Positions 118-64,000 of a DNA stretch of 64,000 nt are shown in pieces. A program made the translations under genes and the position numbers. This DNA comes from a virus. Position 1 is the stretch's first letter; the number at the start of each line of letters is the position of its first letter. Below the pieces are notes generated by a model, which saw only the letters and a program-made list of their open reading frames with translations, searched no databases and was not told the DNA's origin. The stretch covers positions 57,824 to 121,823 of the IMG/VR virus record IMGVR_UViG_3300021962_000035; one strand, 5' to 3'.

Positions 118-125
118 GATATATA
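118..125 (+). promoter_or_regulatory. Candidate late-type promoter element (GATATATA)
   Basis: GATATATA ends 18 bp before the GTG start at 144. Spacings of 16-19 bp recur at the genes starting at 15996, 51111, 56747 and 61754. The octamer resembles the T4 late promoter TATAAATA in length and composition. Promoter activity is inferred. Confidence 0.55.
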
Positions 126-32846: not shown

Positions 32847-32859
32847 TATTAAAAAGTAA

Positions 32860-36534: not shown

Positions 36535-39500
36535 ATGTCTCAATCTAGACTTTTTGATTATAATTCTTCGTTCGCTGTAATTAGAACAAATCCTAAATTA
36601 ACGGGTAATTTTAAAATATCTGTTGATTCTCAAGGTGGAGTTTATTTCAATTCGATGAATGTAAATGACACTTTGAGTAATGATGCTTTTAAAAATTTCA
36701 ATATCAGCGGAGAGAACAGTTATGCTACGGATGTATCAGATTTCTTCAGAAACGGAAAGATATCCAATGATCTAATATTTCAGGTTGGAAATTTCACAAA
36801 CGGACAGGCACAATCGGCCCAAGATTTTTCAGATCAATATGATTTCTTTTATGCTAGCGGAGCATCATCTTTAGCTGATAAAAACTATCCCGAAGATTTT
36901 AGCTACTTCGCACCACTTTGGATTAAAAACGAGATCCCTGATTTCTTTGTAATATTTAAACTTAATGATCCATTAGATTATCCATATTCTAAGAACGTTA
37001 CCACTATCGAGCCTTTGACTAAATATAAAGTCATACAAGATTTTGATAGTTCAGAGACATTTAAGATTGCTTATGGTAAAACCCCAGCCGGAAATGATAT
37101 CTACTATTCATCGGGTGAAGTATTTACCGGAAAAACTAGCTCTACTACATATAGCGTAATATCAGGATCTGGTAAGGTTGCTATTTATAATGAGATTGAA
37201 TACTTATCCTCAGTTAATGATGTTTCGTCAACTTTCAGGAATAAGATCTTGAATAAAGCTACTGCAATAAAAACTTTCGATCTTAGAGAAAATACAAAAA
37301 TAGGTAAGTACATTAGAGCCCTCTTCAATAATGATCAATTCTCTAATTCACCTCTTGAGGTTAGTTGGGGATATGATTCTTATACGTATTATAAAGGTGC
37401 AAGCATATCCGATGGTGTTTACACTAAAAAAGGAGAGCTACTTAATCAATACCTTTCAACATCTAAGTCGGATCCTATGATAGATTTGGAGGATTATGTA
37501 ACCTCCGGATTTTCTAGAAATGGTATAGTTTGTCCCAATTTATTGAATCTTGAATTTTTCTTTGATGACGACGATTCAGATCTTTACACGATCAACAGAT
37601 ACATCGGAATGTATGTTTCTAGAAATGATATTGCTTCTATCCGAACCAACGGTAATTTCTTTTACGAATTCAGGAATATGGACGGTAACGAGAATACTCC
37701 AATCCCATCCAGAAATAATGTAGGATACTACTATAATAACACCCCATATGAAATCGGAGCTACTTCGGGCGTTAGAATTTTCTATGAAAATGGATCTGGA
37801 TTTTTACCCGGATCTGATAATGTAAATTTGCTTGATCCTAATAAGCTTTTTTACGTAACTGATAAAAATGACAGTTTCTATAGCTTAAAAAGATCTGAAG
37901 ATTATGCAGTTTATGGCGGAACCGGTCCTAAATATGCCTATGGTCCTTATAGTTACACTACCGAAACCTTTTCAGCAACAGGTTCAACTGGTGCTACTTC
38001 CGGATCTTTAGTTCTCCAGAATAAGACAATAAATCTTCTGAATTTCACAGGTAGCGATGATAAGCTTGCAACAATAAAGGGAGAGCTTGCTTTAGAACCA
38101 GGAAGGGCATACACTGAAATAGAATTCTTAAAAGCTTATGACAAAGAAAAGCCTTTAACTTTTAAGATATTCTGGCCTAACGGCTCTATGAAAGAAGGAC
38201 CAAGAAGATATGACACAGTTAGCTCTGGTGACTATTCTTCTATATTAATATGGACTGGTGGATCGTATTACTCAACTGGTAACTCATATTACTTTAATGC
38301 CTCTACTGGTACTACTAGCGAGATAGCTTCTGCTTTAGCTTCAGTTATAAAAGATATGGATGAATCCACGATGGACTCTGGATACGATTCTTCGTCTTCT
38401 ATAATAAGAGTTAAGAATCCTGGTACTTATGGTAACAGTGCATTTTCTATATCTGTTTTTGGCGACTATAAATCTTTTGAAGACAAATATGCTGGAACTT
38501 GGGATAATAAAACAACATACTCAGCTGATTCGATCGTATTATATGACGAGAACTACTATAAAGCCTCCGGATCTGTGGGTCCAACCGGGGGAAATCAATT
38601 TTCAGCAAATCCTGAACAGACAACCCTTTGGCAGGAATATTCTACGTTCTCTTACCCGGGATATCTTAAAATAAACGGTACCGACGCATCAGACCTAAAT
38701 AAGAATGTAAACTTTATAGGAGGAACTGTTAATAGAAACAATAGAATCATATTCAGCAGTAGCTATTCAGATCTAGTACTACCTGGATATTATGTCAACA
38801 CGGAGTCCGGATATTCTATGATAGAATCTGTTAATAAATTTGTAGATGTACCTAAAGTAGATCCGATAACAAGAAAGCCCGTCGGATTCGTTGACTTCTC
38901 TTATAAGTTAGTTTTAAATTTAAAGGACATCTATTCTCAAATAGATTTGGGATCTGATCAATCATTTAATGTATATGACTCAGCTTCATTAAACATAGGG
39001 GTCTTTACATTCTTCGATATGAAAGAATTTAATTTCGATTTCTGGAGTTCTGACTATGGATACACCCCAAATCCAGAGACTTATAAGTACTTTGAGATCC
39101 AGCCAAACACTCAGAATTCTATAGAAGCTAATGTACCGTATTTCGTTAAAAAGGGACAGATCAGTTATGGAGGAAACATTTATAATGCTGGGAATCTTTT
39201 CTATGGTGCAACGGGATATACATCCTTCTCCGTATCTGATCCTAGCTTAAATCTCAGTGCTTCCGCATTAACGTCAAGCTCTTCCGGTACATCTAACGTT
39301 CCTTCCGGTAATGTTGTTGTTTTCCCTGCACAGTATTCTGACGTCATATACAACTCTTCAACAAGCACTTATTCGGAAATAAACTATACCAGGGATTTGG
39401 AAGGATTCAGTGGATTCTTAGGGATCCAAGGATTACTTCTTGATCCTAAATCTGCTAATCCAACTAAAGAGCAGGTATTCTATTATGGAAAACTGAACAC

Positions 39501-42078
39501 TGAATACGACTACTTAAAAGAAAATTATACCACAGAAAGAGCTAACATATCTAGAATAGTTCCTTATATAAATAAATGGGGATCCTCGATAGGAACAGAT
39601 TCTAGAGGTAACAGATATAGGTTAAACAGCAGTCCAGCTTTTTCTCCTACGAACTTTTCCCCGAGCTTTGATAGGATTCAGCCAGATCCGAAGTATTTAA
39701 CACATGAATGGTTCTTACTTGAGCAGCCTCCGAGATATTTCCCGAAGGAATTTATGAACGATCAGAACAGCTATCTCCCGCATAAGATAGATTTAACTAA
39801 AGCTAGAAGTTCAGATCCGGATGACTCGTTATATCTTTCATCATATTTTACTGTGGATCCTAGCGATTATGATTCAGAATTTAGTGATAGTAGTAACTAT
39901 ACTAAGGAATTGTTTACGCCTCTGGTATTCAACCAAGCTTCTGGATTTTATGAAACTATTTTCAGAGGGGTAAAAATAGTTTTAAAGAAAAGATCTGACG
40001 TAGAAAACACAGGAACTGTACAGAGTTTAAACTCCGACAGGTACATTAAGAATTACAGAGGATACGAGGATTATAAATTCTCTGCTATACTAAGAGCTAT
40101 ACCTGAAGATAATACGATCATACAGTCCCCAGTTAAATATAGCGTAATAGAAAATGAAGAGCAGAAATTCGTATTATTCGTATGCGACTTTATAGTAAAA
40201 GATCAGAAGGCTTTTGATCTAGGTTATACTGGAGGAACGGGCGGAAATCCTATATTAGATTACACTCTCCTTTACACACTAAACGATAAGGAAAAAATAA
40301 AAAGTCCGCTAGTTTCTTCGCAGAATTTTTATCAAATAGACGATATTAAATTAAGCGCAGCTTTGGATCTTTCCCTAAGTTCAGGAAGCTCTGTTAACAC
40401 TACCCAGAGCCCTGGTGTAATAAACATAGTTAGAAACCCTGAATATGATACTGATTTAAGGGAGGAAATACATTCGGTATATGTAGAAAATGCAGTGGGA
40501 GCAACCGGCGGTCCCAGCTCTTCCGGACCTTTAAGTTTTAGCGTTTCTGGTATAAATTCAACTTATCCCTGGCCTACTGGAGTTGGTCCATCCTTCGTAG
40601 AGTTTGGTAGAGTTGCAACCGGATCATCCTACTTATTCTCGATACCTTTCTCGACGTCTAACCCAGTTACGGTTCCGGTCGGGCCTTCTTCGGTATATAA
40701 AAAATACCCGGTTATACAGTCGGAGGGTGGAGCTAAATATTATAAATCCCTTTTGGGTAGATGCTCGGTTTCTTATATAGCTAATAAGTTCAATCTAGGA
40801 TCTCCTTACATATCATATAGAAGTTATGAATGGGATTCTGCTAATCAAATTACCATTGAGACTCCAGATTCATTCGAGCTTTATTTCGAGAAACCCACTA
40901 AAATAACTAAGCCTAGCGGATCTTTAGTAAGCAGATCTTATAACGGACCTCAGGCATTGAAGGGTGCTAGAGTAGAAACTGGATTTGTAATAAGAAAAGC
41001 TCAGATAGGTCTCCCTTCAATAATTACTAGGTATTCTGGTGAATATGAACCCCTTTTCAGAAAGGTTATTCACTTTGATAGAGATAAAACGGATACTATA
41101 GCTGGGTCCGATTCTATAGATCTCTCCTTCAGAAATTGCAATTTTGCACCGGACAAGAAATATTTCGGAATATCTAGGAATCTATCTTTCACAAAAGTTT
41201 CGCAGGGATCAGATATATTGGCAGCAGCAGTCCCTTATCCAGAAGGTCCTGTTTATCCATTGATTGGATTAACCCCAATAGACAAGAAAGACTTTAATTT
41301 ATTCTCATCATCATGGGATCCTGGATATTATAGCAGGTACACCAGTGCAACCGTGGGTAATTATGTTGCTGGTACTAGATCTATGCTCGAGTATAAGACA
41401 TTCTTTGGGTCTAAAGTTATGCAAACCCCAGATCCGGTACAGGTAAACAACTACATAACCCTCGAGATATCAAGAACCTCTGGATTAAAGAGTCCAAATC
41501 TTGTAAATGCTCAGATAGACAGCTATATAGAATCTGTACAGAATATCTCTAAAACAAATTCGAATACAGGAATAGGATCTGTTGGTCCTTATCTATCTGG
41601 TGTTGATTTTAATAAGTTGGATCTAAACATATTTCCCAATGCGGAGATAATTTGGCAGAATTTCCCGGAGCAAAGAAAGGTTAAGGGAATAATCAGATTG
41701 GATAGAATGCTAAGAAGATTTCTACTCAATTCAGGAATCAAGAAGGTGTTTATAGATAACATGATATCAGAATTTGGAGTAGGCGATCCCAAGTCAATAA
41801 ACGACGATGTTAACAACTACATCGACTTAAACGTTTCGCCTTTATACCAGGGTCAAGTTTTTAATTTTTATGTTAAAAAAGTTGCTAATGAGACGATACC
41901 AACTTCCCAATTAGTAAGAGGAGATTTATTCTCTTCCGATCGCTATAAACTGGAATATTTTATAGATAGCGACTATAAATTAATAACGAGAAGTAATTTA
42001 ACATACGAATTCGAATATCCGATGGATAAGGGATTTTCATATTCAATGATGTTCAATTTCACAATAAGTAAGATATAA
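36535..42078 (+). CDS. Giant virion structural protein (1847 aa), largest gene in window
   Basis: The 5.5-kb gene encodes a Ser/Asp/Tyr-rich, beta-dominated protein with no enzyme motif. N-terminal segment PEDFSYFAPLWIKNEIPDFF looks like a conserved core; GATG, TGSTGATSG and GPTGG loops are scattered through the rest. A C-terminal region (about 1690-1780) has alternating helices and LDRMLRRFLLNSGIKKVF. Size and neighbours suggest a long fibre or a baseplate appendage. It has no T4 counterpart that I recognise. It is preceded by a 24-base gap and followed by the first collagen-like fibre paralogue after three bases. Confidence 0.6.
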   Translation: MSQSRLFDYNSSFAVIRTNPKLTGNFKISVDSQGGVYFNSMNVNDTLSNDAFKNFNISGENSYATDVSDFFRNGKISNDLIFQVGNFTNGQAQSAQDFSDQYDFFYASGASSLADKNYPEDFSYFAPLWIKNEIPDFFVIFKLNDPLDYPYSKNVTTIEPLTKYKVIQDFDSSETFKIAYGKTPAGNDIYYSSGEVFTGKTSSTTYSVISGSGKVAIYNEIEYLSSVNDVSSTFRNKILNKATAIKTFDLRENTKIGKYIRALFNNDQFSNSPLEVSWGYDSYTYYKGASISDGVYTKKGELLNQYLSTSKSDPMIDLEDYVTSGFSRNGIVCPNLLNLEFFFDDDDSDLYTINRYIGMYVSRNDIASIRTNGNFFYEFRNMDGNENTPIPSRNNVGYYYNNTPYEIGATSGVRIFYENGSGFLPGSDNVNLLDPNKLFYVTDKNDSFYSLKRSEDYAVYGGTGPKYAYGPYSYTTETFSATGSTGATSGSLVLQNKTINLLNFTGSDDKLATIKGELALEPGRAYTEIEFLKAYDKEKPLTFKIFWPNGSMKEGPRRYDTVSSGDYSSILIWTGGSYYSTGNSYYFNASTGTTSEIASALASVIKDMDESTMDSGYDSSSSIIRVKNPGTYGNSAFSISVFGDYKSFEDKYAGTWDNKTTYSADSIVLYDENYYKASGSVGPTGGNQFSANPEQTTLWQEYSTFSYPGYLKINGTDASDLNKNVNFIGGTVNRNNRIIFSSSYSDLVLPGYYVNTESGYSMIESVNKFVDVPKVDPITRKPVGFVDFSYKLVLNLKDIYSQIDLGSDQSFNVYDSASLNIGVFTFFDMKEFNFDFWSSDYGYTPNPETYKYFEIQPNTQNSIEANVPYFVKKGQISYGGNIYNAGNLFYGATGYTSFSVSDPSLNLSASALTSSSSGTSNVPSGNVVVFPAQYSDVIYNSSTSTYSEINYTRDLEGFSGFLGIQGLLLDPKSANPTKEQVFYYGKLNTEYDYLKENYTTERANISRIVPYINKWGSSIGTDSRGNRYRLNSSPAFSPTNFSPSFDRIQPDPKYLTHEWFLLEQPPRYFPKEFMNDQNSYLPHKIDLTKARSSDPDDSLYLSSYFTVDPSDYDSEFSDSSNYTKELFTPLVFNQASGFYETIFRGVKIVLKKRSDVENTGTVQSLNSDRYIKNYRGYEDYKFSAILRAIPEDNTIIQSPVKYSVIENEEQKFVLFVCDFIVKDQKAFDLGYTGGTGGNPILDYTLLYTLNDKEKIKSPLVSSQNFYQIDDIKLSAALDLSLSSGSSVNTTQSPGVINIVRNPEYDTDLREEIHSVYVENAVGATGGPSSSGPLSFSVSGINSTYPWPTGVGPSFVEFGRVATGSSYLFSIPFSTSNPVTVPVGPSSVYKKYPVIQSEGGAKYYKSLLGRCSVSYIANKFNLGSPYISYRSYEWDSANQITIETPDSFELYFEKPTKITKPSGSLVSRSYNGPQALKGARVETGFVIRKAQIGLPSIITRYSGEYEPLFRKVIHFDRDKTDTIAGSDSIDLSFRNCNFAPDKKYFGISRNLSFTKVSQGSDILAAAVPYPEGPVYPLIGLTPIDKKDFNLFSSSWDPGYYSRYTSATVGNYVAGTRSMLEYKTFFGSKVMQTPDPVQVNNYITLEISRTSGLKSPNLVNAQIDSYIESVQNISKTNSNTGIGSVGPYLSGVDFNKLDLNIFPNAEIIWQNFPEQRKVKGIIRLDRMLRRFLLNSGIKKVFIDNMISEFGVGDPKSINDDVNNYIDLNVSPLYQGQVFNFYVKKVANETIPTSQLVRGDLFSSDRYKLEYFIDSDYKLITRSNLTYEFEYPMDKGFSYSMMFNFTISKI

Positions 42079-43669: not shown

Positions 43670-45373
43670 ATGCCAGATTTAAAATTACTAAGAATAGAAG
43701 AAGGGGATAATCAGAAAAATTTAGTTGATAAAGTCAACTCAAATTTTTCTAACATTATAACTTTCGGAGGAGGACCTTACGGTAAGCTGGGACAGGAAGG
43801 TCCAGAGGGGGATAAAGGTGCAACTGGTCCGGTGGGTTCTTATGGTGATATGGGTGCTAGAGGAAGCATTTGGGTAGTAGGTATAACTAACCCGGGAACT
43901 ACTGGCTACATTAACGGCGATTTCTGGCTCAACCTTACACCCGGATCAGGAAATCAGATATATCAATTTTCTTCAGAAGCTTGGAGTCCTTATGGATTCA
44001 ATTTACTTTCACAAGATCTATTTAGGATATATCCAAACGTACCAACTTCAGCGGGGGATTCTTCTTATAATGGGTACCATTTAACATCCATAAATCCCTC
44101 CGACTACACATTGGTACTTAGCGACAATTCATTAGTTGGTGCAACTGCAAGTACAAATCCTCAATACTCTAAGCTAGTTCTATCTATAGACGGTGGAGCT
44201 ACCGGAAAGGGATTATTAGAGTTTAGTAAATATGAATATTCTTCTTCCCCTTCATTTACATCTAAAACACCTAGATTCCTTTGGTCCTCAACATCAACAT
44301 CAGCATCTCTTAAATATGGCCTAAGCTTAAGATTAGGAGATTCATTATTTATTGATATACCTAATGGTAATCTTGGATTAAATAACACTTCTTCAGCAGG
44401 AAGCAATCTAAGCCACAGATCTACCGGATTTAATTTATATCTCACAGAAAGTAGAGGACTATCGGTAACAACATCTGGTGATTTCATATTAAATTTTTCC
44501 AGCACTGGAACTGCTTTATTTTCTAATAGAAACATAACTTATACCGCATCAGCTGTCTCTGTTGCTGCAAATTTCAGTATTCCAGTTAGTCTTACTTTTT
44601 CCAATTCGTCTGCTGACTCTTTGCCTCCCCTTTGGCTTTCCAGCAGTTTGCCTAATGTTGGAGGATTAAGACACAGAACTAATGTAGCATCAAGTAGAAG
44701 TTCCAGTCTTTTTTACTTATATGGTCCTAGTGAATTTTATGTAGATGTTAGAGCAAACGGAGAATTCTGGTACAATAAAAGAATAAATTCAATACAGCCA
44801 GTTCAGAACGTCACTTCGATAGGTACTGGAAACGTTACTATTCCTTCTGGACCTACGGTTTCTACTCAATGGTATGCCGTTGTTCCTGGTGTCGTTTATG
44901 CTGCTGGAACACCTTCTCAAAGAATAAATTCAAATAACGGAATAGACTTTGTAGTAAATCCGGCTACTTCGGGTCCTTCTACCTCTACTGGAGTGTATTT
45001 ATGGACACCCGCAACGGGGGCAACTGCAGATTCTAATGGAGGATTTCTTAATCTTCTAAACGATCACGAATCTATAGAACTAAGAGTAAGAACAGCGTCA
45101 GAAAGTAAGTTCTTCAGATTTGTTGGTTTGGGTACATCAAACACTTTTTCAGATCTTCCTTACGTTCCTTACACGTCATATCAAGCAGCAGATCTTAGTG
45201 GTAGTAATTCTGTTGGAGCTTCTCATATAGATTTTACCATAATGAATATAACTGGAACAGGATCTACGGCAGGAACTAGCAGATGGTTTAAGGTCTACTA
45301 TAGTGCTTATGGAGGAAATTTGAATGGAAGTAAATGCGGAATACTATACACTACAGGATCAACAGCAATCTAA
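43670..45373 (+). CDS. Collagen-like tail fibre paralogue 2 (567 aa)
   Basis: The head motif is EEGDNQKNLVDKVNSNFSNI followed by GGGPYG, then collagen-like triplets (GQEGPEGDKGATGPVG) and a GDFWLNLTPGSGNQIYQFSSEAW segment matching paralogue 1. The body is beta-rich. A shared feature with paralogue 1 is EFYVDVRANGEFWYNKRIN, equivalent to EFWLSTKGKLRTNKVRE. A tail-fibre or receptor-binding role is inferred. It is followed after 11 bases by paralogue 3. Confidence 0.75.
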   Translation: MPDLKLLRIEEGDNQKNLVDKVNSNFSNIITFGGGPYGKLGQEGPEGDKGATGPVGSYGDMGARGSIWVVGITNPGTTGYINGDFWLNLTPGSGNQIYQFSSEAWSPYGFNLLSQDLFRIYPNVPTSAGDSSYNGYHLTSINPSDYTLVLSDNSLVGATASTNPQYSKLVLSIDGGATGKGLLEFSKYEYSSSPSFTSKTPRFLWSSTSTSASLKYGLSLRLGDSLFIDIPNGNLGLNNTSSAGSNLSHRSTGFNLYLTESRGLSVTTSGDFILNFSSTGTALFSNRNITYTASAVSVAANFSIPVSLTFSNSSADSLPPLWLSSSLPNVGGLRHRTNVASSRSSSLFYLYGPSEFYVDVRANGEFWYNKRINSIQPVQNVTSIGTGNVTIPSGPTVSTQWYAVVPGVVYAAGTPSQRINSNNGIDFVVNPATSGPSTSTGVYLWTPATGATADSNGGFLNLLNDHESIELRVRTASESKFFRFVGLGTSNTFSDLPYVPYTSYQAADLSGSNSVGASHIDFTIMNITGTGSTAGTSRWFKVYYSAYGGNLNGSKCGILYTTGSTAI

Positions 45374-45384
45374 AGATATAAAAA

Positions 45385-47148
45385 ATGCACTTCAATACTA
45401 AATATATTTTAACGGGTGATTCAGCTTCTGAGATAAGGAAAAAGATCAATTATAATTTTGATCAGATCATATCCTTTGCTGTAGGTCCTGATGGCCACCA
45501 GGGTCCTAAAGGACCAGATGGTTACGACGGGCCTGCGGGTCATAAAGGTCTGACTGGCCTAACCGGATTAAGAGGAACTATTTGGTATAAACAGGACGAC
45601 CAGCCAGGAAATTCCAGCAATCCCTTTGATCTTTGGATAGACTCAAATACCAGCGATTATCAGGTAAATTCTAAAGGGACAAATGGTGCATGGAGTTACA
45701 CTGGGTATTCTCTATTTACATCCCCTTATTTTGCCTCTTATGATGGTATTATAGGACCAGCTGGAGTAACTGATAAATATGCTATTGGAATAAAGAGCGG
45801 AGTGGGTCTAACAGAATCCCTTACATCTCTGATAGTGGGGGATCTTGGATTAGGCACAACCGGAGCAAATCCGAATAGATCTAAACTCCTCGTATCTACT
45901 GAAGACCAAACAGCCAGACCAATATTTACGTTTTCTAAAACTGGAGCTATATCTTCGGGTGTTCCCGCTTTCTATTGGAGAACTTCCGGTGCTTCGGCAA
46001 GTTTAAGGTACAATTCTACGGGTGGATTAGAAATTTCTTCTTTATTAGGATTAAGCGTAGATTCTTATACTGCTAGAGCACTTCTATATGGTAATTATGC
46101 AAACATAACATCAACACAAAGCGTTACTATAGGAGGAACAGGTGATTTTTATTTATTCTCCAATACTACAGTTGGACAGGGTGGAAATTTTGCAGTGGAA
46201 TCAACCACCATGAGATTAACATCTTCACTTTTATCACTCTATAGGCCTACTAAAATATCAACCACTTCCACAACTGCTGCTAGTGGATTTGTACTAGACA
46301 CCACAAAAAATCTCCCTTCTGGTACTACTATCAGTGCAAGAGGGATAGAATTGTATGCTGCAGATTCTACCCCTAATGCTTTATTTGAGTTCAGAGATCT
46401 CAAAGACGCTCCTATATTTTCTGCAAGTCCTAGGGGTTCTTTAGATAGCGGTAAACACTCACAGGTTACCTTTGGGTCTACTGGGGGAGCAACTGCAGGT
46501 GCAACGGGTGGACCTTATTTTTATCACGTTAAAAGAGTTAAAGAAGTGAGGGGAGCTACAACTACTGTCACTTGTAGAGCCTGGACAGGAACCACTGTAA
46601 CTTGGCCTCCTGGACCGGTCTATAATGTAATGGACTTATCGTCTACTACTCTATGGGACAGCGACGTCATTTTAGTTACCCCTACTTCTTTTACCTTTGC
46701 TTCAAATAACTATGTTTTCATAAGAATACCTAGTTCATATTCCACAAATTTAGATGGCGTTTACTCTGGTGGATATGCCAATAAGTATAGAATATTCTTG
46801 AATGATATCACTACCTCATCTAGCTATGTTATAGCAGGTTTAGTTTATGATTACTTTACAAAGGCGGGCACTAATATAATTACAAATACCGCATTAATTA
46901 CTTTCAACGCACCAGGGGCATTCTCCACTGGTGATAAATGTCTATATGTTGATATCACCTATCTTGCTCCAGCAAGCACAACTAACGGAAACCCAAGAGT
47001 TTTCTGGAAAACGTGTAACGGAACTAGCGGATTCATAAATCTATCAAACATATACAGTATCGGTAGTATAGTTTCAACTGCTCCAAGTACCGCAGCATCG
47101 CAAACTATAGCAACAACAACAGCAAAAGGAGGAATAGTCTCTGCATAA
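45385..47148 (+). CDS. Collagen-like tail fibre paralogue 3 (587 aa)
   Basis: The head is TGDSASEIRKKINYNFDQI, then collagen-like triplets (GPDGHQGPKGPDGYDG, GHKGLTGLTGLRG), then FDLWIDSNTSDYQ and a beta-rich body with a Ser/Thr-rich middle. The body differs strongly from paralogues 1 and 2, whereas the head, collagen and W-I-D segments are aligned. The heads probably attach to a common site, with diversified tips. The C-terminus (TAPSTAASQTIATTTAKGG) is low-complexity. Confidence 0.75.
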   Translation: MHFNTKYILTGDSASEIRKKINYNFDQIISFAVGPDGHQGPKGPDGYDGPAGHKGLTGLTGLRGTIWYKQDDQPGNSSNPFDLWIDSNTSDYQVNSKGTNGAWSYTGYSLFTSPYFASYDGIIGPAGVTDKYAIGIKSGVGLTESLTSLIVGDLGLGTTGANPNRSKLLVSTEDQTARPIFTFSKTGAISSGVPAFYWRTSGASASLRYNSTGGLEISSLLGLSVDSYTARALLYGNYANITSTQSVTIGGTGDFYLFSNTTVGQGGNFAVESTTMRLTSSLLSLYRPTKISTTSTTAASGFVLDTTKNLPSGTTISARGIELYAADSTPNALFEFRDLKDAPIFSASPRGSLDSGKHSQVTFGSTGGATAGATGGPYFYHVKRVKEVRGATTTVTCRAWTGTTVTWPPGPVYNVMDLSSTTLWDSDVILVTPTSFTFASNNYVFIRIPSSYSTNLDGVYSGGYANKYRIFLNDITTSSSYVIAGLVYDYFTKAGTNIITNTALITFNAPGAFSTGDKCLYVDITYLAPASTTNGNPRVFWKTCNGTSGFINLSNIYSIGSIVSTAPSTAASQTIATTTAKGGIVSA

Positions 47149-47158
47149 AAAATAAATT

Positions 47159-47434
47159 ATGATAAATATGACTGAATTATCAAAAAAAGAAAAAGAAGAG
47201 GTTTTAAATCTCTCTCAAGAGTTTATCAGAATCCACGGTGAAATACTAACTGTAGAGGAAACGATAAAGAAAATGGAAATTAGATCTTCCGAGCTTATAG
47301 AGGAATTAGAAAACTGCAGAGAAAGAGAAAGATATTTCAGCGAAAATCTAGCCAAAAAATACGGCGAGGGAAGTTTAGATCCGACCGGGTTAAAATGGAA
47401 AAAAGAAAATATTGTATATGAAATTACCAAATAA
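47159..47434 (+). CDS. Small coiled-coil protein (91 aa)
   Basis: An acidic, helical protein with heptad-like spacing (EEVLNLSQEFIRIHGEILTVEETIKKMEIRSSELIEELENC) that suggests a coiled coil. A second ATG at 47168 is possible. Its last 17 bases overlap the membrane-anchored protein gene. No family is recognised. With its neighbour it forms a two-gene unit between fibre and virion genes, a place where lysis or virion accessory genes occur in other phages. Confidence 0.65.
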   Translation: MINMTELSKKEKEEVLNLSQEFIRIHGEILTVEETIKKMEIRSSELIEELENCRERERYFSENLAKKYGEGSLDPTGLKWKKENIVYEITK

Positions 47435-51083: not shown

Positions 51084-51091
51084 GATATATA
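51084..51091 (+). promoter_or_regulatory. Candidate late-type promoter element (GATATATA)
   Basis: GATATATA starts one base after the previous stop codon and ends 19 bp before the ATG at 51111. The spacer (ATTAAATTAAA) is shared with the element at 22853. Confidence 0.6.
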
Positions 51092-51110: not shown

Positions 51111-51347
51111 ATGAAAAAGTTTTCAGAAGTAAAAGAACTAAACGAGATGAAGTACGGTCAGCCACTAGGTGGTGAAAAAGACCAAATGAAAAATCTTTTG
51201 GTAGCAGCTGCAGGTAACGACCAAAGAGTATTAAATGACTTGGTAAACTGTCTAACTGATGCACAAATGAAATCTTGTTTCGAAAAGCTTTCTAAAGTTT
51301 ATGGATATACAGGTTCTGTTGGTCAGATAGTTCACCCTGCAGTTTAA
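51111..51347 (+). CDS. Small protein with capsid-targeting-like N-terminus (78 aa)
   Basis: The N-terminus MKKFSEVKELNE then MKYG fits the shared pattern F-x-x-V with L-x-E. If cut after LNE by a gp21-like protease, a 66-residue mature protein would remain. That rest is helical (DQMKNLLVAAAGNDQRVLNDL) with a Cys near residue 54. No family is recognised. It has its own candidate promoter, which suggests high late expression, as expected for an abundant internal head protein. Confidence 0.7.
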   Translation: MKKFSEVKELNEMKYGQPLGGEKDQMKNLLVAAAGNDQRVLNDLVNCLTDAQMKSCFEKLSKVYGYTGSVGQIVHPAV

Positions 51348-56722: not shown

Positions 56723-56730
56723 GATATATA
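56723..56730 (+). promoter_or_regulatory. Candidate late-type promoter element (GATATATA)
   Basis: GATATATA ends 16 bp before the ATG at 56747. It would drive the run of genes that includes the nucleotidyltransferase and ligase/NMNAT genes. Confidence 0.6.
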
Positions 56731-56746: not shown

Positions 56747-57286
56747 ATGAGAATAAAGAAATTTGACACTTTTAGCGAATCTATATTAGAGGGTAAGTCT
56801 GATTATTATAAAGGAAACACCAAATTAAGCAGATGGCTTAGAAAAGTGGACGGGAATATGGAGTACGAATATGATAAGCTTAGAGCTGCATCGGAGCCAG
56901 TAGGCAACGACAACGGGGCTTCTACTATCAATAGCGTAAATTCTCTTTTACCTTTAATGGGAAGATTAATAGCTAGCTCTGGTGCTGCTATAGCAGATTT
57001 CTTCTTTAAAGGTGATTCTAAGGATTCCTACTCTAAATTATCGAAATCTGAGCTAAAGGATAAAAAGAAAGACGTTTTAGACGATTGGGAGAAAGAAAAG
57101 ATAGGTGATAAGAACGTTACAGAAAAAGACGCTGAAGATTTTTATAAATCTGGGGTACTTAAGGGCAAAAAATACTTTGGTAAAGATTATCAACCACTTA
57201 AGCCTAAAAACGACGACGAGAAACAATATAGCAGCTATTTGACGGGTGCTATGGGAAGATATTACGATAAAATCCACAAGAAATAA
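56747..57286 (+). CDS. Hypothetical protein with capsid-targeting-like N-terminus (179 aa)
   Basis: The N-terminus MRIKKFDTFSESILE then GKSD fits the shared motif (KFDTFSE, then I-L-E). A cut after ILE would release the rest as a mature head-internal protein. The rest includes a mildly hydrophobic stretch (SLLPLMGRLIASSGAAIADFFF, about 67-88) that could insert into a membrane or form a coil, and a Lys/Asp-rich C-terminus. No family is recognised. It starts a unit that continues with the nucleotidyltransferase after one base. Confidence 0.7.
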   Translation: MRIKKFDTFSESILEGKSDYYKGNTKLSRWLRKVDGNMEYEYDKLRAASEPVGNDNGASTINSVNSLLPLMGRLIASSGAAIADFFFKGDSKDSYSKLSKSELKDKKKDVLDDWEKEKIGDKNVTEKDAEDFYKSGVLKGKKYFGKDYQPLKPKNDDEKQYSSYLTGAMGRYYDKIHKK

Positions 57287-57287
57287 T

Positions 57288-58220
57288 ATGAGTAATAGGG
57301 TTTTAGATTTTTCTGGCTTTAACAAGCTTTTTGAAGGCGGTGCTGCTATAAAGACCGCAAGGAGAATCCGTGAGGACGAATTTCCCAAAACCCTTGAGAG
57401 TATAAAGCAAATTCTTTTCCCGTTACTTTCAATTGACCCAACTAAGATTAATGACGAGTATATAATAATCGGAAGTATCGGTAAGAAGAAGAACCCGGAC
57501 GACACATCCGGTGACCTTGATCTTGGATACGATAGCTCTTGGTTTGCCAGAGAACATGGTATAACTGTGAAAGAGGTTTCTTCATTTACCTATAATATTA
57601 TCATAGAGAAATTAGGAGATGCTTTAGGGTATCAGCCTGAGATAAATTTTATGAAGGGACTGAACATAGTTAGCGTTGGATGGCCAATTGAAGGTGATGT
57701 TAATAAGGGAATAGTTCAGCTTGATCTTATCCCGATTTCTAGTATGGAATGGGCGGAGTTTATTTACTATTCGCCAAACTATAAGATAGGAGAAAGCAAA
57801 TATAAATCGGCTCACAGAAACTGGTTGCTTTCCGCTATATTATCAGCAAGAAAAGAAGTATTAGATACTGACGAAGCTGGTGAAATTATGGACTACAATT
57901 CACCTGTCCTAATTCTTAGTGATGGTCTCTTCTGGCACACCAAATCATATAGAGGGGCTAGAATACCTAGATTAAAACACTCTAAAAAAGTGGAGGGAAG
58001 CGAGAGATTCGTAACCAGAGACCCACAGGAATTTGTAGATTTCGCTCTAGGACCTGGCTACACTGTGAATGATGTTAAAACATTTGAGGATGTGCTAAAA
58101 ATTATAGAAGACCCAAAATTTGATCTGCATGACAAATTACCTGAAATAAAACAGAGATTTTTGGAATACCTTGAGAGAGTTGGACTAGAAATACCAACGG
58201 AAATAAATAGAATCGATTAA
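57288..58220 (+). CDS. Pol-beta-type nucleotidyltransferase with capsid-targeting-like N-terminus
   Basis: The start is ATG at 57288; a longer frame from 57246 overlaps the previous gene and hides the motif. The N-terminus MSNRVLDFSGFNKLFE then GGAA fits the shared capsid-targeting pattern. The catalytic core resembles the nucleotidyltransferase superfamily: G62-S63 with D76-L-D78, then L-D146-L-I-P as the third acidic strand. The family adds nucleotides to RNA, protein or small molecules, so the substrate is open. The family assignment is good, the substrate unknown. The ligase/NMNAT gene follows after 10 bases, suggesting they work together, possibly in nucleic-acid repair or cofactor chemistry. 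Confidence 0.8.
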   Translation: MSNRVLDFSGFNKLFEGGAAIKTARRIREDEFPKTLESIKQILFPLLSIDPTKINDEYIIIGSIGKKKNPDDTSGDLDLGYDSSWFAREHGITVKEVSSFTYNIIIEKLGDALGYQPEINFMKGLNIVSVGWPIEGDVNKGIVQLDLIPISSMEWAEFIYYSPNYKIGESKYKSAHRNWLLSAILSARKEVLDTDEAGEIMDYNSPVLILSDGLFWHTKSYRGARIPRLKHSKKVEGSERFVTRDPQEFVDFALGPGYTVNDVKTFEDVLKIIEDPKFDLHDKLPEIKQRFLEYLERVGLEIPTEINRID

Positions 58221-58230
58221 AAAATAAAAT

Positions 58231-60258
58231 ATGTCAGGAATTAGTCATTTATATGATCTCTATAACAAGAAAGGAAAGGATTTTATCGATAGTCTTTTCA
58301 ATTCTTATGTTACCGTCAATGAGAAGATGGATGGATCTGCTTTTATCTTCGAAAGAGATATAGAGACAGGTAAATTTAATTTCTTCAAGAGAGATCAAAG
58401 AAACCCTATAACGTTAGTTGATAGGACATTGATGAAGTATTACGAGAAGCCTATTCAGTATATCGAATCCCTTCCTCCTCACATCATCAAGGAGATTCCT
58501 AGAGGGTGGAGATTCGGTCTTGAATATTTTGCCAACAATGCTCCAGTAGAGATTGTTTATGACGAGGTACCTAAAAACAACCTAATACTTTCTTATGTTC
58601 ATAAGAAGGATGAATTAGGAAAGGCTATGGGAACTATTCAGGGCAAAAATAAGCTTGACGATTGGGCAGATTTATTAGGTGTTGAAAGACCTCCTATTAT
58701 TTTTCAAGGATACTTAAGCAAAGAACAAAAGGACAGAATCCTAGATTTCTTAAGAACCCCATTCGAAGATCTCGTAACTGAGTACAAAACTAGAAGCTTC
58801 GTTGCTTTTATTATCGGAGTACTTAATCCGGAATTAAAGAAAACAGCTTTAAATGCAGATCTACAAAAACCAATAGAAGGTATTGTATTTAGATTCGGAG
58901 AAGAGGATGCAGAGCAGGAGCCAATCTTATCTAAGATGGTAGATCCTGTTTTCACAGAACTTGCTAAATCTAAAGCGAAAAAGAGAGTAGAAGAAAAACC
59001 TAGCGACTTCTTAGGAATCACGATACTTGATGTAATGAACTTCATTCTTGAACAAGGTGTCGAGACATTCGAGGTTGAAGGAACAACGGAGGATGAAAGA
59101 TACATTTCATTCATTTCTGACGTCTTCTCTAAATTCCTTGATGAGTATGGTTATAAGTACAAAGGAGCAGATTTTCAGGAGCCTGAGTACTTAAAAAGAG
59201 AAGAGTTTAGATTAAACAAAAATCTGATAACTGATAAAAGAGTATTAAGATACCTAGATGAGGATGAGTCTTTTGAATCTTTATTTAAGCTTATTCTAAA
59301 TTCGTTTAGAAAGATCAAAAAAAGAGCAGGCGGAATAATAACTCCGGGAATCATAGATCAATTCAATTCGGTGGTTTCTTCGATAGAGAAGATGGTAGCT
59401 GCCAAAGAGAGCAAGCCAGCTATAACCGAATCCGAAATGCCTTCCTTCCTTGACTTCAAAAAGAATAATCTAAAACCTAAAAAGGTGGAGTATGTAACTA
59501 GCGAATCTGAGGATGGATCAAAGGCTGACGATCACTTCTATTCTTATAACGAATTCATATCAGCTTTAGAAACAATTGATACAACCAAGAAGGATATACC
59601 TAAAATTGAGGAGAACAAAGAAAAGGTAGAAGAGGATGAAAAACCCGAACTTAAAGACGTTAATCTTTTAGTCGGTAGATTCCAACCATTCCATAACGGG
59701 CATTTAAAAATGGCCACTTTCCTTAAGGAGAAAAATGATCTTCCGAGTATAGTTGCTGTCGTTCACCCCGGACATAATAAATCAGGTAAATCCCCATTCA
59801 GTGAGAATGTGGTAGCAAAATATATGGAATCGGTGGTAAAAGACAGCCCGGGAAAAATTGAAGGGTACTTCATTGTTAAAAGGGGTTTACTTGGAGTAAT
59901 TTACGGAGCAGCTAAAGAGATGGGTTACAAAGTTAATCTAATCGGAGCTGGTGACGATAGAATGGAAGACTACAAAAAACAATCAGAATACCTTAAAAAA
60001 GCTGGTGGAGATTTTCCTAAGGAAATTGAGGTTGTAGAAACACCTAGATCCACATCAGGTACAGAAGTTAGAAAAGCTATAGAAAATGAAGATTTCTTAG
60101 CATTCAAGAAATTGGTTCCGCAGGGGGTATCATCTTTCTATAACAGCTTGCTTTCCTCAATAAACGGTAAGGGTATCAAGGAATCGGAAGAAGCTATTAC
60201 AGAGAGTGAAATAGCGGAGCTTGAAACAAAAGCTTTAAAAGAAAATATTGAAAAATAA
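58231..60258 (+). CDS. Fusion: ATP-grasp-like polynucleotide ligase plus NMNAT-like domain
   Basis: The term ATP-grasp here denotes the covalent nucleotidyltransferase fold of DNA/RNA ligases, not true ATP-grasp enzymes. Ligase motif I is K32-M-D-G35 (lysine accepts AMP), motif IIIa is RFGLEYF, motif IV is E216-G-I-V-F and motif V is near K235. Residues about 470-640 resemble archaeal NadM-type nicotinamide-mononucleotide adenylyltransferase: G482-R-F-Q-P-F-H488-N-G-H491 and S609-G-T-E-V-R614, then KLVPQGV. A linker (about 397-470) is acidic. The sequence AITESE occurs twice, at 397-402 and 655-660, flanking the second domain. These I-T-E sites match the (I/L)-x-E protease pattern. The fusion is clear; the function is inferred as RNA/DNA sealing plus NAD synthesis. 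Pantetheine- or FAD-type adenylyltransferases are alternatives for the second domain. Confidence 0.85.
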   Translation: MSGISHLYDLYNKKGKDFIDSLFNSYVTVNEKMDGSAFIFERDIETGKFNFFKRDQRNPITLVDRTLMKYYEKPIQYIESLPPHIIKEIPRGWRFGLEYFANNAPVEIVYDEVPKNNLILSYVHKKDELGKAMGTIQGKNKLDDWADLLGVERPPIIFQGYLSKEQKDRILDFLRTPFEDLVTEYKTRSFVAFIIGVLNPELKKTALNADLQKPIEGIVFRFGEEDAEQEPILSKMVDPVFTELAKSKAKKRVEEKPSDFLGITILDVMNFILEQGVETFEVEGTTEDERYISFISDVFSKFLDEYGYKYKGADFQEPEYLKREEFRLNKNLITDKRVLRYLDEDESFESLFKLILNSFRKIKKRAGGIITPGIIDQFNSVVSSIEKMVAAKESKPAITESEMPSFLDFKKNNLKPKKVEYVTSESEDGSKADDHFYSYNEFISALETIDTTKKDIPKIEENKEKVEEDEKPELKDVNLLVGRFQPFHNGHLKMATFLKEKNDLPSIVAVVHPGHNKSGKSPFSENVVAKYMESVVKDSPGKIEGYFIVKRGLLGVIYGAAKEMGYKVNLIGAGDDRMEDYKKQSEYLKKAGGDFPKEIEVVETPRSTSGTEVRKAIENEDFLAFKKLVPQGVSSFYNSLLSSINGKGIKESEEAITESEIAELETKALKENIEK

Positions 60259-60266
60259 AACTTAAA

Positions 60267-60830
60267 ATGAGAAGACTAATATCTACATTCGAGCAATTCA
60301 AAATAAACGAGATGGATTCAAAGAATCTACACGAATCGGATGGATTCGGGACTTCCCCATTTCTACTAATTAAGAACGGTGATATTTACAACTACTTCTT
60401 TAACATAGAAGAAGAAAATGGAGAATCCGAGAAGGGGTTTCATTTCATAGTTGGGAAATACTCTAACAACGAAGTTATTGATGGACCTAAAAATTCTTAT
60501 TGCGTATTAACTTTAAATGAAATAGCTCAAGAGCTCATAGAGGATATCGCTGTAGAGAAGGAGGAAGTTCCCCAGCCAAACACTATGAAATTCAAAGCTG
60601 GCGGAAACATGGTTTCTAGAATAATGGAATATTGCTCAAAATGCTTAAGCAGCTATTTGGAGGCAAATCCTAAGGTGAATAGAATATATGACGAGATTCA
60701 GGATAATCTAGAGTTTGACGGGAAGGGAGAGTATATTGAGTTTATGAAATCGATAGTTATTTCTTACCTAGGAACAAACTGGTCAGTTCAACAGGGATCC
60801 ACTAAAAAATCGGTGTTAATAAGCAGATAG
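60267..60830 (+). CDS. Hypothetical protein with capsid-targeting-like N-terminus (187 aa)
   Basis: The N-terminus MRRLISTFEQFKINE then MDSK fits the shared motif (TFEQF, then I-N-E). The rest has strands (FLLIKNGDIYNYFFNIEEE) and a helix-rich middle with Cys (IMEYCSKCLSSYL). No family is recognised. It ends the unit that begins at 56747; eight bases separate it from the ligase/NMNAT gene. If cut after INE, the mature protein would be about 172 residues. Confidence 0.7.
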   Translation: MRRLISTFEQFKINEMDSKNLHESDGFGTSPFLLIKNGDIYNYFFNIEEENGESEKGFHFIVGKYSNNEVIDGPKNSYCVLTLNEIAQELIEDIAVEKEEVPQPNTMKFKAGGNMVSRIMEYCSKCLSSYLEANPKVNRIYDEIQDNLEFDGKGEYIEFMKSIVISYLGTNWSVQQGSTKKSVLISR

Positions 60831-60855
60831 GGTGAAACATTCACAATAAATAAAG

Positions 60856-60863
60856 TATAAATT
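60856..60863 (+). promoter_or_regulatory. Candidate promoter element (TATAAATT variant)
   Basis: TATAAATT ends 23 bp before the ATG of the histone-like gene. It resembles the T4 late consensus but differs from GATATATA. The leader is A/T-rich. A single weaker site. Confidence 0.3.
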
Positions 60864-60886
60864 ACAATCTAAATAAATAAATAATC

Positions 60887-61066
60887 ATGGAAAAATTCGA
60901 ACAAATCAAGGCCTTGATCGAAAGCACTCAAGGAGACGTAGAAAAGTTTTTTGAAAAAGGTAACGGCTCAGCTGGTACAAGAGTAAGACAAGCTATGCAA
61001 GAGTTAAAGAAGCTTGCTCAAGATCTTAGATTAGAAGTACAAGAGGCTAAAAACAAAAAAGCTTAA
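60887..61066 (+). CDS. Histone H1/Hc1-like DNA-binding protein (59 aa)
   Basis: The 59-residue protein begins MEKFEQIKALIEST, then FFEKGNGSAGTRVRQAMQEL and KKLAQDLRLEVQEAKNKK. This matches the small histone H1-like (Hc1-like) proteins found in most Bacteroidota, which share K-G-N-x-x-A-G-T-R-V-R and A-Q-x-x-R-x-E-V-Q-E. Its role would be DNA packing or host nucleoid control. It is too short for common length filters, so easily missed. It sits in its own leader, 57 bases after the previous stop. The resemblance implies acquisition from a Bacteroidota host. Confidence 0.85.
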   Translation: MEKFEQIKALIESTQGDVEKFFEKGNGSAGTRVRQAMQELKKLAQDLRLEVQEAKNKKA

Positions 61067-61089
61067 TTAACCCTTTAAACAAAAAGCTA

Positions 61090-61299
61090 ATGAGCTATTA
61101 CGTAGTTAAGACAAGTTTCGAATCCGGAGAGGTTAACAAGAACGGAGATCCTGTTTACAAAAAAGCAGAATTCTTAGTATCTGGTGAATCTGTTATGGAA
61201 GTTGAAACTAAGATGGCTGAATACTTAGATGGTTCAGTCGGAGGATTTGAGACAACTCAAATCACAAAATCAAAAATAGAGGCTGTCGTAGGCGAATAA
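61090..61299 (+). CDS. DUF4494-like small protein (69 aa)
   Basis: The protein (MSYYVVKTSFESGEVNKNGD, then YKKAEFLVSGESVMEVETKM and a GGFETTQITKSK end) recalls the Bacteroidota DUF4494 family: a short strand, a lysine-rich turn, a ValSerxxS-type helix and a final I-x-x-x-K strand. I recall this family from memory only. It lies 23 bases after the histone-like gene, in a tight group of small genes. Function unknown. Confidence 0.5.
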   Translation: MSYYVVKTSFESGEVNKNGDPVYKKAEFLVSGESVMEVETKMAEYLDGSVGGFETTQITKSKIEAVVGE

Positions 61300-61300
61300 A

Positions 61301-61486
61301 ATGTCTAAAACAAAAAATCCCGAAACAAGTTCTTACACACCGCCAAAAACCATTAGGAAAATCCAAAAAGGTGATAAAGGCTACGCCCTAGTTAAAAAAG
61401 CTTTTGATAAAGCTTTTGAAGGAGATACAATCATGAATTTTTCTGATTGGACAAAAAAAGAGAATAAAGAAAATGTCGAAGACTAA
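61301..61486 (+). CDS. Small tandem paralogue A (61 aa)
   Basis: MSKTKNPETSSYTPPKTIRK, then IQKGDKGYALVKK and a FSDW near the end. The next gene repeats the same order (MSKT, Y-x-P-P, I-Q-x-G-D-x-G-x-A-L-V, F-x-D-W), so the two arose by duplication. No family is recognised. The 14-base overlap with the next gene suggests coupled translation. Confidence 0.65.
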   Translation: MSKTKNPETSSYTPPKTIRKIQKGDKGYALVKKAFDKAFEGDTIMNFSDWTKKENKENVED

Positions 61487-61712
61487 TGCTGAAACAAAAT
61501 TTTATGCTCCCCCTCAATCGCCAATTGCTATTCAACCAGGAGATACTGGATTTGCCTTAGTAGGCAAAGGATATAATCGATTTATTTGGACCTTCAATGA
61601 TTGGTACAAATCTAAAAAGAAAATTATCAATCCAGACAAGAATTGGGATTTATCCTCTAAACCCATAACCCAAAAGGAATGGGAAGAAAAGAAAAAGGAC
61701 TTATATTTATAA
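61473..61712 (+). CDS. Small tandem paralogue B (79 aa)
   Basis: MSKTNAETKFYAPPQSPIAIQ followed by PGDTGFALVGKGY, then FNDWYKSKKK and a charged C-terminus with an EWEEKKKDLYL end. It is the longer copy of the preceding gene. The stop codon lies inside the stem of the terminator at 61693-61725, so termination and coding overlap. Function unknown. Confidence 0.65.
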   Translation: MSKTNAETKFYAPPQSPIAIQPGDTGFALVGKGYNRFIWTFNDWYKSKKKIINPDKNWDLSSKPITQKEWEEKKKDLYL

Positions 61713-61725
61713 GTCCTTTTTTTTG
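61693..61725 (+). terminator. Rho-independent terminator overlapping a stop codon
   Basis: AAAAGGACTTATA pairs perfectly with TATAAGTCCTTTT (13 bp, very tight loop), followed by a T-run. The stop codon TAA (61710-61712) of the upstream gene lies in the second arm. It is followed immediately by a promoter element. Confidence 0.88.
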
Positions 61726-61726
61726 T

Positions 61727-61734
61727 GATATATA
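61727..61734 (+). promoter_or_regulatory. Candidate late-type promoter element (GATATATA)
   Basis: GATATATA begins two bases after the terminator and ends 19 bp before the ATG at 61754. A new unit must start here, so this is among the best-supported copies. Confidence 0.68.
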
Positions 61735-61753
61735 GATCAAAATAGAATCGACA

Positions 61754-62560
61754 ATGCTTAGGATTTTATCATTTGATCAATATTTATCAGAAGGAGCGGA
61801 TTTCGCAGATAAACTAAATGTTCTTAAAACAACTAAAACAACTTCAGCAGATCCTGTTGTTGATAGTTTTTATAGCTCCATTAAAAATACCCAGCCAGAA
61901 GAATTGCCTAGAGGCAGCAACAAAGGTCCAAAGGTCGAGCCTTTACAAAAAGGTGTTGGTGCAAGACCCGGAGATCCTTGGTGTGCAGCATTTGTTCATA
62001 GTGTTTTAACCAAGACTAATTTTTCTTCGGATATAAAGAAACAAATACCTGACGATGCAGCAGTTAGATATCATTGGAATAATTCAAAGGCAAAAAAGAT
62101 CTCATATGATTCAAAAACAAGCCTAGATACTATACTTCCTGGTATGGTTTTTTGTTATCTTACGAAGGATAAAAAAACTAATACTTACCCTGGACACGGA
62201 CACACTGGTATAATTTTATCGGTTGATAAAGACAAGAAAACTTGGACCGGTGTGGAGGGTAACGCAAATCCTCTAGACGGGAGCAGAGAAGGTTATGGAA
62301 CCTTCATCGTAACTAGAAAATTTGCAGATCCAAGCATATCTAAAGATCCCAAAGATCACCCTGCTAAAATGCTAGGTTTCATAGATTATTTTGCACCATA
62401 CAGAAAAAATTCAGGATTTACTAATTCTCTATCATCTAAATTGAAATCAGCTCTAAATGAGCTACTACCCAAAACCAATAAAGAGGTAGCTTATCTCTCG
62501 GCGCATCCAGAGGTATTAAAAGATTACGAAGAAAATTATAACAACAGAAATAAATCATAA
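61754..62560 (+). CDS. CHAP-like peptidoglycan hydrolase with capsid-targeting-like N-terminus
   Basis: CHAP/NlpC-type enzymes cut peptidoglycan amide or peptide bonds. The 268-residue protein has the catalytic Cys C77 in DPWCAAFVH and the His H150 in GHGHTGIIL, followed by VEGNAN, the usual third position. The N-terminus MLRILSFDQYLSE then GADF fits the shared capsid-targeting motif, so a cut after LSE is possible. It has no signal peptide. It could be an endolysin or a head-packaged hydrolase; the motif favours the second. The C-terminal ~70 residues are Lys/Asn/Glu-rich and may bind wall. It has its own promoter after a terminator. Confidence 0.82.
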   Translation: MLRILSFDQYLSEGADFADKLNVLKTTKTTSADPVVDSFYSSIKNTQPEELPRGSNKGPKVEPLQKGVGARPGDPWCAAFVHSVLTKTNFSSDIKKQIPDDAAVRYHWNNSKAKKISYDSKTSLDTILPGMVFCYLTKDKKTNTYPGHGHTGIILSVDKDKKTWTGVEGNANPLDGSREGYGTFIVTRKFADPSISKDPKDHPAKMLGFIDYFAPYRKNSGFTNSLSSKLKSALNELLPKTNKEVAYLSAHPEVLKDYEENYNNRNKS

Positions 62561-62959: not shown

Positions 62960-64000
62960 ATGGCTAAATTCCCATCAAATCCCAAGATTGGCCAAGCTTT
63001 TATTGGCGATCCAGGAACGTTATACGTCTGGAACGGATATCAGTGGCAGCTAGTTACGGTTGGGGGGAGTGCTGGAGCACAAGGTGCCCAGGGAGCACAA
63101 GGACCAGCTTATGGTTCTAGCGGTTCTAGCGGATCCTCAGGAGCCCAGGGTGCTCAAGGTGCTTCTGGATCGGGAACATCTGGTTCTTCCGGTGCTCAAG
63201 GGGCTCAGGGTGCTCAAGGTGCTTCTGGATCGGGAACATCTGGTTCGTCCGGTGCTCAAGGGGCTCAGGGTGCTCAAGGTGCTTCTGGCTCTGGTTCTTC
63301 TGGCTCTGCTGGTACTAGCGGGGTTGATGGTAATTTTTATGGTTCTTCTGGAAGCTCTGGTAAAAATGGGTCTTCGGGAACATCAGGATCTAACGGGTCC
63401 TCGGGGACATCAGGATCTAATGGGTCTTCGGGAAGTTCGGGAAGTTCGGGAAGTTCTGGTACCTCGGGTACCTCTGGTAGTTCAGGCAGCAGTGGAAGCA
63501 GTGGAACTTCGGGAAGCAGCGGAACTTCGGGATCTAATGGATCTAGCGGAACATCGGGAACCTCTGGTATTGCAGGAATCTCAGGTATTAACGGTTCCGA
63601 TGGAACTAGTGGAACTTCGGGATCTAGCGGGACCTCAGGATCTAGCGGGACCTCCGGAGCTAACGGTTCCAGTGGAACCTCTGGTGCTAATGGATCATCT
63701 GGATCTAGTGGAACTTCAGGAACATCTGGACTTGCAGGAATTGCTGGCGTCAATGGTTCTAATGGAACGAGTGGAAGTTCAGGGAGCAGTGGAGGTACTG
63801 GATCTTCAGGAACATCCGGATCTAGTGGATCTAGTGGATCTAGCGGAACATCTGGATCTAGTGGGTCTGCAGGAACATCCGGATCTTCAGGAACCTCTGG
63901 CTCTAGTGGAAACACGGGTTCTAGCGGAACATCAGGTTCCAGCGGAACTTCGGGTTCTAGTGGAAGCTCTGGATCCAGCGGGATTACCGGATCTAGTGGA
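62960..64000 (+). CDS. Collagen-like tail fibre protein, 3' end beyond window
   Basis: ATG at 62960 opens a frame that has no stop up to the window end (347 codons). The N-terminus (MAKFPSNPKIGQAF, then GTLYVWNGYQWQLVTVGG) looks like a fibre head, with the W-N-G-x-x-W pattern seen in phage fibres. From residue about 36 on it is a near-perfect run of Gly-x-x triplets (GAQ, GSS, GTS, GSN), more than 90 of them with few interruptions. Proline is almost absent and Ser/Thr dominates. The three fibre paralogues at 42-47 kb have short collagen-like parts; this one is far longer. An antisense frame at 63337-63915 is an artefact of the triplets. Confidence 0.85.
   Translation, partial: MAKFPSNPKIGQAFIGDPGTLYVWNGYQWQLVTVGGSAGAQGAQGAQGPAYGSSGSSGSSGAQGAQGASGSGTSGSSGAQGAQGAQGASGSGTSGSSGAQGAQGAQGASGSGSSGSAGTSGVDGNFYGSSGSSGKNGSSGTSGSNGSSGTSGSNGSSGSSGSSGSSGTSGTSGSSGSSGSSGTSGSSGTSGSNGSSGTSGTSGIAGISGINGSDGTSGTSGSSGTSGSSGTSGANGSSGTSGANGSSGSSGTSGTSGLAGIAGVNGSNGTSGSSGSSGGTGSSGTSGSSGSSGSSGTSGSSGSAGTSGSSGTSGSSGNTGSSGTSGSSGTSGSSGSSGSSGITGSSG
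63121..63300 (+). repeat. Direct 60-bp repeat, three copies, within the collagen-like gene
   Basis: Three consecutive 60-bp units encode GSS-GAQ-GAQ-GAQ-GAS-GSG-T type 20-residue blocks. The first two are nearly identical in DNA, and the third diverges at its end. It indicates recent slippage or recombination that keeps the frame. Confidence 0.85.

Follow-up and report, generated by a model that had tools for sequence, protein, structure and literature searches.

Dozens of otherwise unrelated proteins in a family of putative T4-like jumbo phages share a short N-terminal tag, which is very probably a capsid-targeting sequence (CTS) of the T4 type, greatly expanded and loading cargo into the head; docking, cleavage and packaging are what we infer from the sequence. 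This interpretation was originally predicted from a window of 64,000 nt (the whole stretch of DNA analysed) and is supported by a prohead protease gene on the same contig, selection on the motif among orthologues, a match to the T4 mutational map, late-promoter-like sequences at the starts of the transcription units, and a tagged enzyme of cyanophage virions. The accompanying claim of an undescribed system holds in part: the scale, the cargo and the CTS-like scaffold repeats appear undescribed, while the mechanism is known from T4. Literature searches within an open-access collection yielded no description of an expanded CTS repertoire, of such cargo or of CTS-like scaffold repeats.

Origin of the DNA

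The window spans positions 57824-121823 of a virus record 121,823 bases long. The remainder of the contig to the left of the window was retrieved and its genes were called, and 109 contig genes were analysed; all gene calls, on the contig and in its relatives, were made with a home-made script. Relatives were found as contigs whose length reaches 434 kb. Because the nearest annotated relatives of the capsid protein belong to phages of Prevotella, Tenacibaculum, Flavobacterium, Chryseobacterium and Sphingomonas and to uncultured huge phages, the contig is probably part of the genome of a T4-like jumbo phage whose host probably belongs to Bacteroidota. A megablast comparison of the last 24 kb of the window with annotated phages returned 0 matches.

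Tagged genes of the contig

The tag consists of a basic or hydrophobic start, F-x-x-[FYW], 0-5 residues, [ILV]-x-E and then a small residue. Six genes of the window had been predicted to carry it, and all six open reading frames are present at the predicted starts; the tag is clear in 577, 56747, 57288, 60267 and 61754, while 51111 has a degenerate form. The features are as follows, with a slash at the predicted cut and contig coordinates named as such.

577-1503, plus strand: CTS-tagged protein of 308 aa, CTS ..FNDYQRSKINE/SGSY
577-633, plus strand: predicted CTS propeptide of 577
51111-51347, plus strand: 78-aa protein with degenerate CTS MKKFSEVKELNE/MKYG, second aromatic absent
56747-57286, plus strand: CTS-tagged protein of 179 aa, CTS MRIKKFDTFSESILE/GKSD (codons 56747-56791)
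57288-58220, plus strand: CTS-tagged, tentatively nucleotidyltransferase-like protein of 310 aa, CTS MSNRVLDFSGFNKLFE/GGAA (codons 57288-57335)
58231-60258, plus strand: RNA-ligase-like and NMNAT/cytidylyltransferase-like protein without CTS, in one unit with 56747, 57288 and 60267
60267-60830, plus strand: CTS-tagged protein of 187 aa, predicted cut LHE-23/SDGFG (codon ends at 60335)
61754-62560, plus strand: CTS-tagged CHAP-domain hydrolase, CTS MLRILSFDQYLSE/GADF (codons 61754-61792)
Contig 49119, 50261, 51183 and 56072, outside the window: four more tagged genes

The last four came from extending the motif search beyond the window, and the bodies behind the tag are unrelated, as had been proposed: the seven profile-passing G000 proteins fall into seven separate BLAST clusters. 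The motif is retained in 16 of 16 distinct orthologues of 56747, and among the 22 aligned orthologues of 57288 E16-G17-G18 is invariant and F8 and F11 are nearly so, with variable spacer residues. The predicted structures of 57288 and 60267 are disordered as far as the predicted cut, over residues 1-18 and 1-28, respectively, and folded thereafter. For 60267 the motif had been thought to end at INE-15, which reads IND in its four nearest relatives in the alignment; it is E23 that is invariant, within [LMIV]-x-E/[SA]DGFGTSPF, so the cut is probably at LHE-23 and not at INE-15. Orthologues of 51111 retain F/Y-4 and [LIVM]-N-E, and this gene is the weakest case because its body is as conserved as its tag.

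Family searches with Pfam and PHROGs found no match for 56747, 57288 and 60267 and a single marginal PHROG match for 577 (E 0.009). The latter probably starts at 589, i.e., at Met-5 (MVLGFNDYQRSKINE), like its orthologue G001_290232. The nucleotidyltransferase-like reading of 57288 is tentative, since a Foldseek search with its model gave only weak matches to DNA polymerase mu/beta (best E 0.05) and the assignment draws mostly on a GS...DxD-like signature. The CHAP relatives of 61754 in unrelated phages have no tag.

Other genes lie beside or resemble the tagged ones. The product of 58231 is untagged inside a tagged operon, whereas the cytidylyltransferase GC190 of cyanophages is tagged. A gene to the left of the window (contig 39447-39965) encodes a protein whose N-terminus is conserved as MK[HY]I..[IL][NY]E but lacks the aromatic pair; like 51111, it may represent a second, shorter class of tag. 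The CHAP gene is followed by a DUF3008 protein gene (PF11450, 62565-62942) and then by a gene for a long collagen-like GSSGTSG repeat protein (62960-64000), which extends past the end of the window.

Frequency and form of the tag

The strict motif, defined as F..[FY].{0,6}[IL].E within the first 30 residues, was found in 8 of the 109 contig genes, where internal windows gave an expectation of 0.83 and shuffled N-termini one of 0.79, with a maximum of 5 across 1000 shuffles; the C-termini of the contig genes contained 0 matches. One match, at contig 26214, is probably due to chance and the remaining seven of the eight look genuine. Position P3 is L, I or V in 100/104 tags, Asn stands at P2 in 69/104 and S, A or G at P1' in 71/104, which gives the consensus preference [IL]-N-E/[SAG], and the median cut falls after residue 14.

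In three large relatives (319-434 kb), scored by cross-validation with a profile built from the remaining genomes and applied to the held-out one, 33 of 438, 39 of 440 and 38 of 575 proteins are tagged (the last count covering 400 of 434 kb), where 1.5-2.5 would be expected; each count refers to one record. The cross-validated excess is thus 15- to 20-fold, and genomes of this jumbo-phage family appear to encode roughly 30-40 tagged proteins each, many of them enzymes. A tight pattern gave no matches in the controls (0/462 in unrelated phages) or in PTm1 (0/63), PAU (0/77) and Lak-A1 (0/127), and for a 642-kb phage, as for these three, the excess was not significant; the 462-kb phage LR756500 had 5 matches among 223, compared with 0.8 expected. 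Since the related phages PTm1, PAU and Lak lack it, this form of the tag is, on these counts, specific to the lineage.

Prohead protease, scaffold repeats and capsid protein

The absence of a gp21-like protease had been named as grounds for abandoning the prediction. The contig encodes one to the left of the window, adjoined by a gp23-type capsid gene:

Contig 45290-47251: S77 (T4 gp21-type) prohead protease, 653 aa, PF03420 above the curated cut-off

An S77 protease is present in 8 of 9 relatives' records searched. The C-terminal part of the contig protein carries thirteen 14-residue repeats [YF]xxY[LVI]xE (e.g., YSEYLAE), compared with 0.1 in shuffles, each with a potential cut site, and 10-15 such repeats occur in each of 74 relatives. 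The repeats, which resemble the CTS, make up the putative scaffold, and their likeness to the tag suggests that the tag may bind there. The capsid protein contains HSLNE/SA, identical in all relatives listed and in agreement with the preference seen in the tags. Two adjacent portal-like genes (contig 31043-32656 and 32666-34291, left of the window) both match T4 gp20 and also occur in relatives.

Predicted cargo

The 117 tagged proteins form 66 unrelated body clusters, among them RimK ATP-grasp ligase, adenylate kinase, DEDD exonuclease, Tlde1/YkuD, GDPD, CHAP, SLT, peptidoglycan-binding, OmpA, AAA/MoxR-like and LRR proteins and one weak kinase-like match. By alignment, the tag is an extension added in front of the body: residue 24 of the tagged adenylate kinase aligns to residue 2 of bacterial adenylate kinase, and residue 22 of the tagged RimK to residue 3 of its relative. 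The tagged CHAP, SLT, peptidoglycan-binding and OmpA proteins could act at the tail or in lysis rather than within the head. In one relative (G002:C1:38668-48400, loci L170 and L171), about 11 leucine-rich-repeat paralogues lie in tandem, each with its own CTS.

It could be argued that the tagged proteins are processed parts of the prohead core or the head structure, kept in the particle or degraded and not delivered as cargo. Some of them are indeed encoded near head genes (contig 49119, 50261 and 51183 directly follow the capsid gene), and the T4 core proteins gp22, gp67 and gp68 are cleaved at the same motif (PMC9026906). We nevertheless consider this unlikely, as most tagged genes are dispersed across the genome and patchily conserved, unlike a conserved head-building set, and recognisable enzymes (RimK, adenylate kinase, GDPD, exonuclease) and a tandem LRR array in one genome carry the tag. 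The common N-terminus could also be another localisation signal, directing proteins to the membrane, periplasm or assembly site, with an incidental [IL]-x-E, and several tagged cell-wall enzymes (CHAP, SLT, Tlde1/YkuD, peptidoglycan-binding) would fit such a role. This is less probable still: the tags have no visible hydrophobic signal peptide, cytoplasmic-type enzymes are tagged too, and conservation is highest at the Glu, which matches both the capsid-protein site and the specificity of T4 gp21.

A late-promoter-like octamer upstream of tagged genes

An unbiased k-mer comparison of the regions upstream of tagged genes brought out the octamer GATATATA, which precedes 47/111 tagged genes (42%) and 129/1452 others (9%); with the LRR array left out, the figure is 46/104 (p ~3e-19). 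It is mostly located 10-40 bases ahead of start codons. On the contig 17 of 22 sites are followed within 50 bases by the start of a gene, compared with 0.5 expected, and the excess in relatives is comparable. The octamer stands ahead of sheath (4/4), portal and protease genes and ahead of 0/26 genes matching T4 replication or recombination proteins. It is a probable late promoter of the jumbo-phage family, the T4 counterpart for comparison being TATAAATA. Every transcription unit with a tagged gene within the window begins with it:

118-125, plus strand: GATATATA site of the unit holding 144 and 577
51084-51091, plus strand: GATATATA site of 51111
56723-56730, plus strand: GATATATA site of the unit 56747-57288-58231-60267
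61727-61734, plus strand: GATATATA site of 61754

All sites in the window are at 118, 2191, 12470, 15970, 22853, 29667, 43631, 51084, 55164, 56723 and 61727. Chance, i.e., short degenerate motifs picked by eye in Lys/Ile/Asn-rich N-termini, is hardly credible as the source of the tag: a loose regex did give 12-14 false matches per relative genome and was for that reason dropped for counting, but chance is contradicted by the cross-validated excess, the position-specific conservation among orthologues and the enrichment of the octamer.

Proposed mechanism

We propose that late in infection the tagged proteins would be made alongside the head genes, and that the aromatic pair F-x-x-[FYW] would dock them on the prohead core, whose scaffold would be the protease-fused series of ~13 tandem, CTS-like 14-residue repeats [YF]-x-x-Y-[LVI]-[AG]-E. 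During maturation the protease would cleave after [ILV]-x-E and release the cargo from the core, and it would also shred the scaffold and trim the major capsid protein. Once mature, the cargo would stay alongside the DNA inside the head, and injection of at least some of it is probable, though we hold this less firmly than docking, cleavage and packaging. Roles in host takeover, anti-defence or passage of the envelope might follow, a suggestion made more weakly. We tentatively hypothesize that the core scaffold is made up of CTS-like repeats and that the tag mimics it; almost any gene, such as those for RimK-type ligases, adenylate kinase, LRR arrays, nucleases and phosphodiesterases, could possibly be recruited in this way, and each virion might inject 30-40 effectors.

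Sequence alone thus singles out proteins that are probably packaged in the head of a giant phage and perhaps injected, i.e., dozens of candidate takeover or anti-defence proteins for the first minute of infection, in phages with nearly all genes annotated as hypothetical. It also bears on the way in which T4-type phages gain new injected proteins, namely by addition of a tag of ~14 residues, which might lend itself to packaging foreign proteins in heads larger than that of T4.

Comparison with known systems

The internal proteins IPI-III and Alt of T4 carry a capsid-targeting sequence cleaved by gp21 (Mullaney and Black; reviews PMC9026906, PMC3012670). In the CTS of IPIII, residues 4 and 7 target the protein and residues 8 and 10 are required for processing, and Asp-10 stops processing without affecting targeting (PMC9026906); this is the position that the Asp of IND occupies in the relatives of 60267. 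The T4 tag MKTYQEFIAE fits this mutational map exactly, and the two aromatics and [IL]-x-E of the contig's family match the targeting and processing residues, respectively. Our tag profile needs four residues ahead of the first aromatic and thus misses the CTS of T4 itself, which was therefore checked by regex; this recovered IPII and IPIII. Both systems have an N-terminal propeptide of 10-20 residues, an S77 protease and unrelated bodies behind a single tag. They differ in scale, with a handful of tagged proteins in T4 and 33-39 per genome in the jumbo-phage relatives, in the cargo set, in the spacer after the aromatic pair, which is variable and mostly 0-5 residues long in the jumbo phages, and in the jumbo-phage scaffold, which is fused to the protease and built of CTS-like repeats.

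In phiKZ and SPN3US, a divergent protease of the gp21 type cleaves many head proteins behind a Glu, and they are ejected with the DNA (PMC5694885, PMC10052503). Their propeptides are mostly far longer (~80-130 residues), with the motif A-x-E or S/A/G-x-E, and no common short tag is shared across dozens of unrelated proteins. The jumbo-phage tags, with a median cut at 14 and L, I or V at P3, do not belong to this type of ejection protein.

The cytidylyltransferase GC190 starts with MKKFSAFLNE/A in cyanophage S-SM1 and similarly in P-SSM2, P-RSM4, S-SRM01 and S-BM1. It was detected by mass spectrometry in purified S-SM1 virions (Sullivan et al. 2010, PMC3037559), in a passage that does not itself mention a tag. 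A tag recognised by sequence thus marks an enzyme that is known from a virion. The likeness to our proteins lies in an enzyme with a canonical N-terminal CTS, the difference in that the stretches examined contain just this one case.

Sphingomonas phage PAU, which has a related major capsid protein, also has unrelated proteins with a common, removable-looking N-terminus ending in LNE/A, but with a tag consensus of its own, MK[ST][LI]xxLYE[ASN][KR]LNE. The PAU tag is present on five genes (L215:11031, 16051, 16521, 22994 and 23313), two of which are annotated as internal capsid protein (gp142 and gp154).
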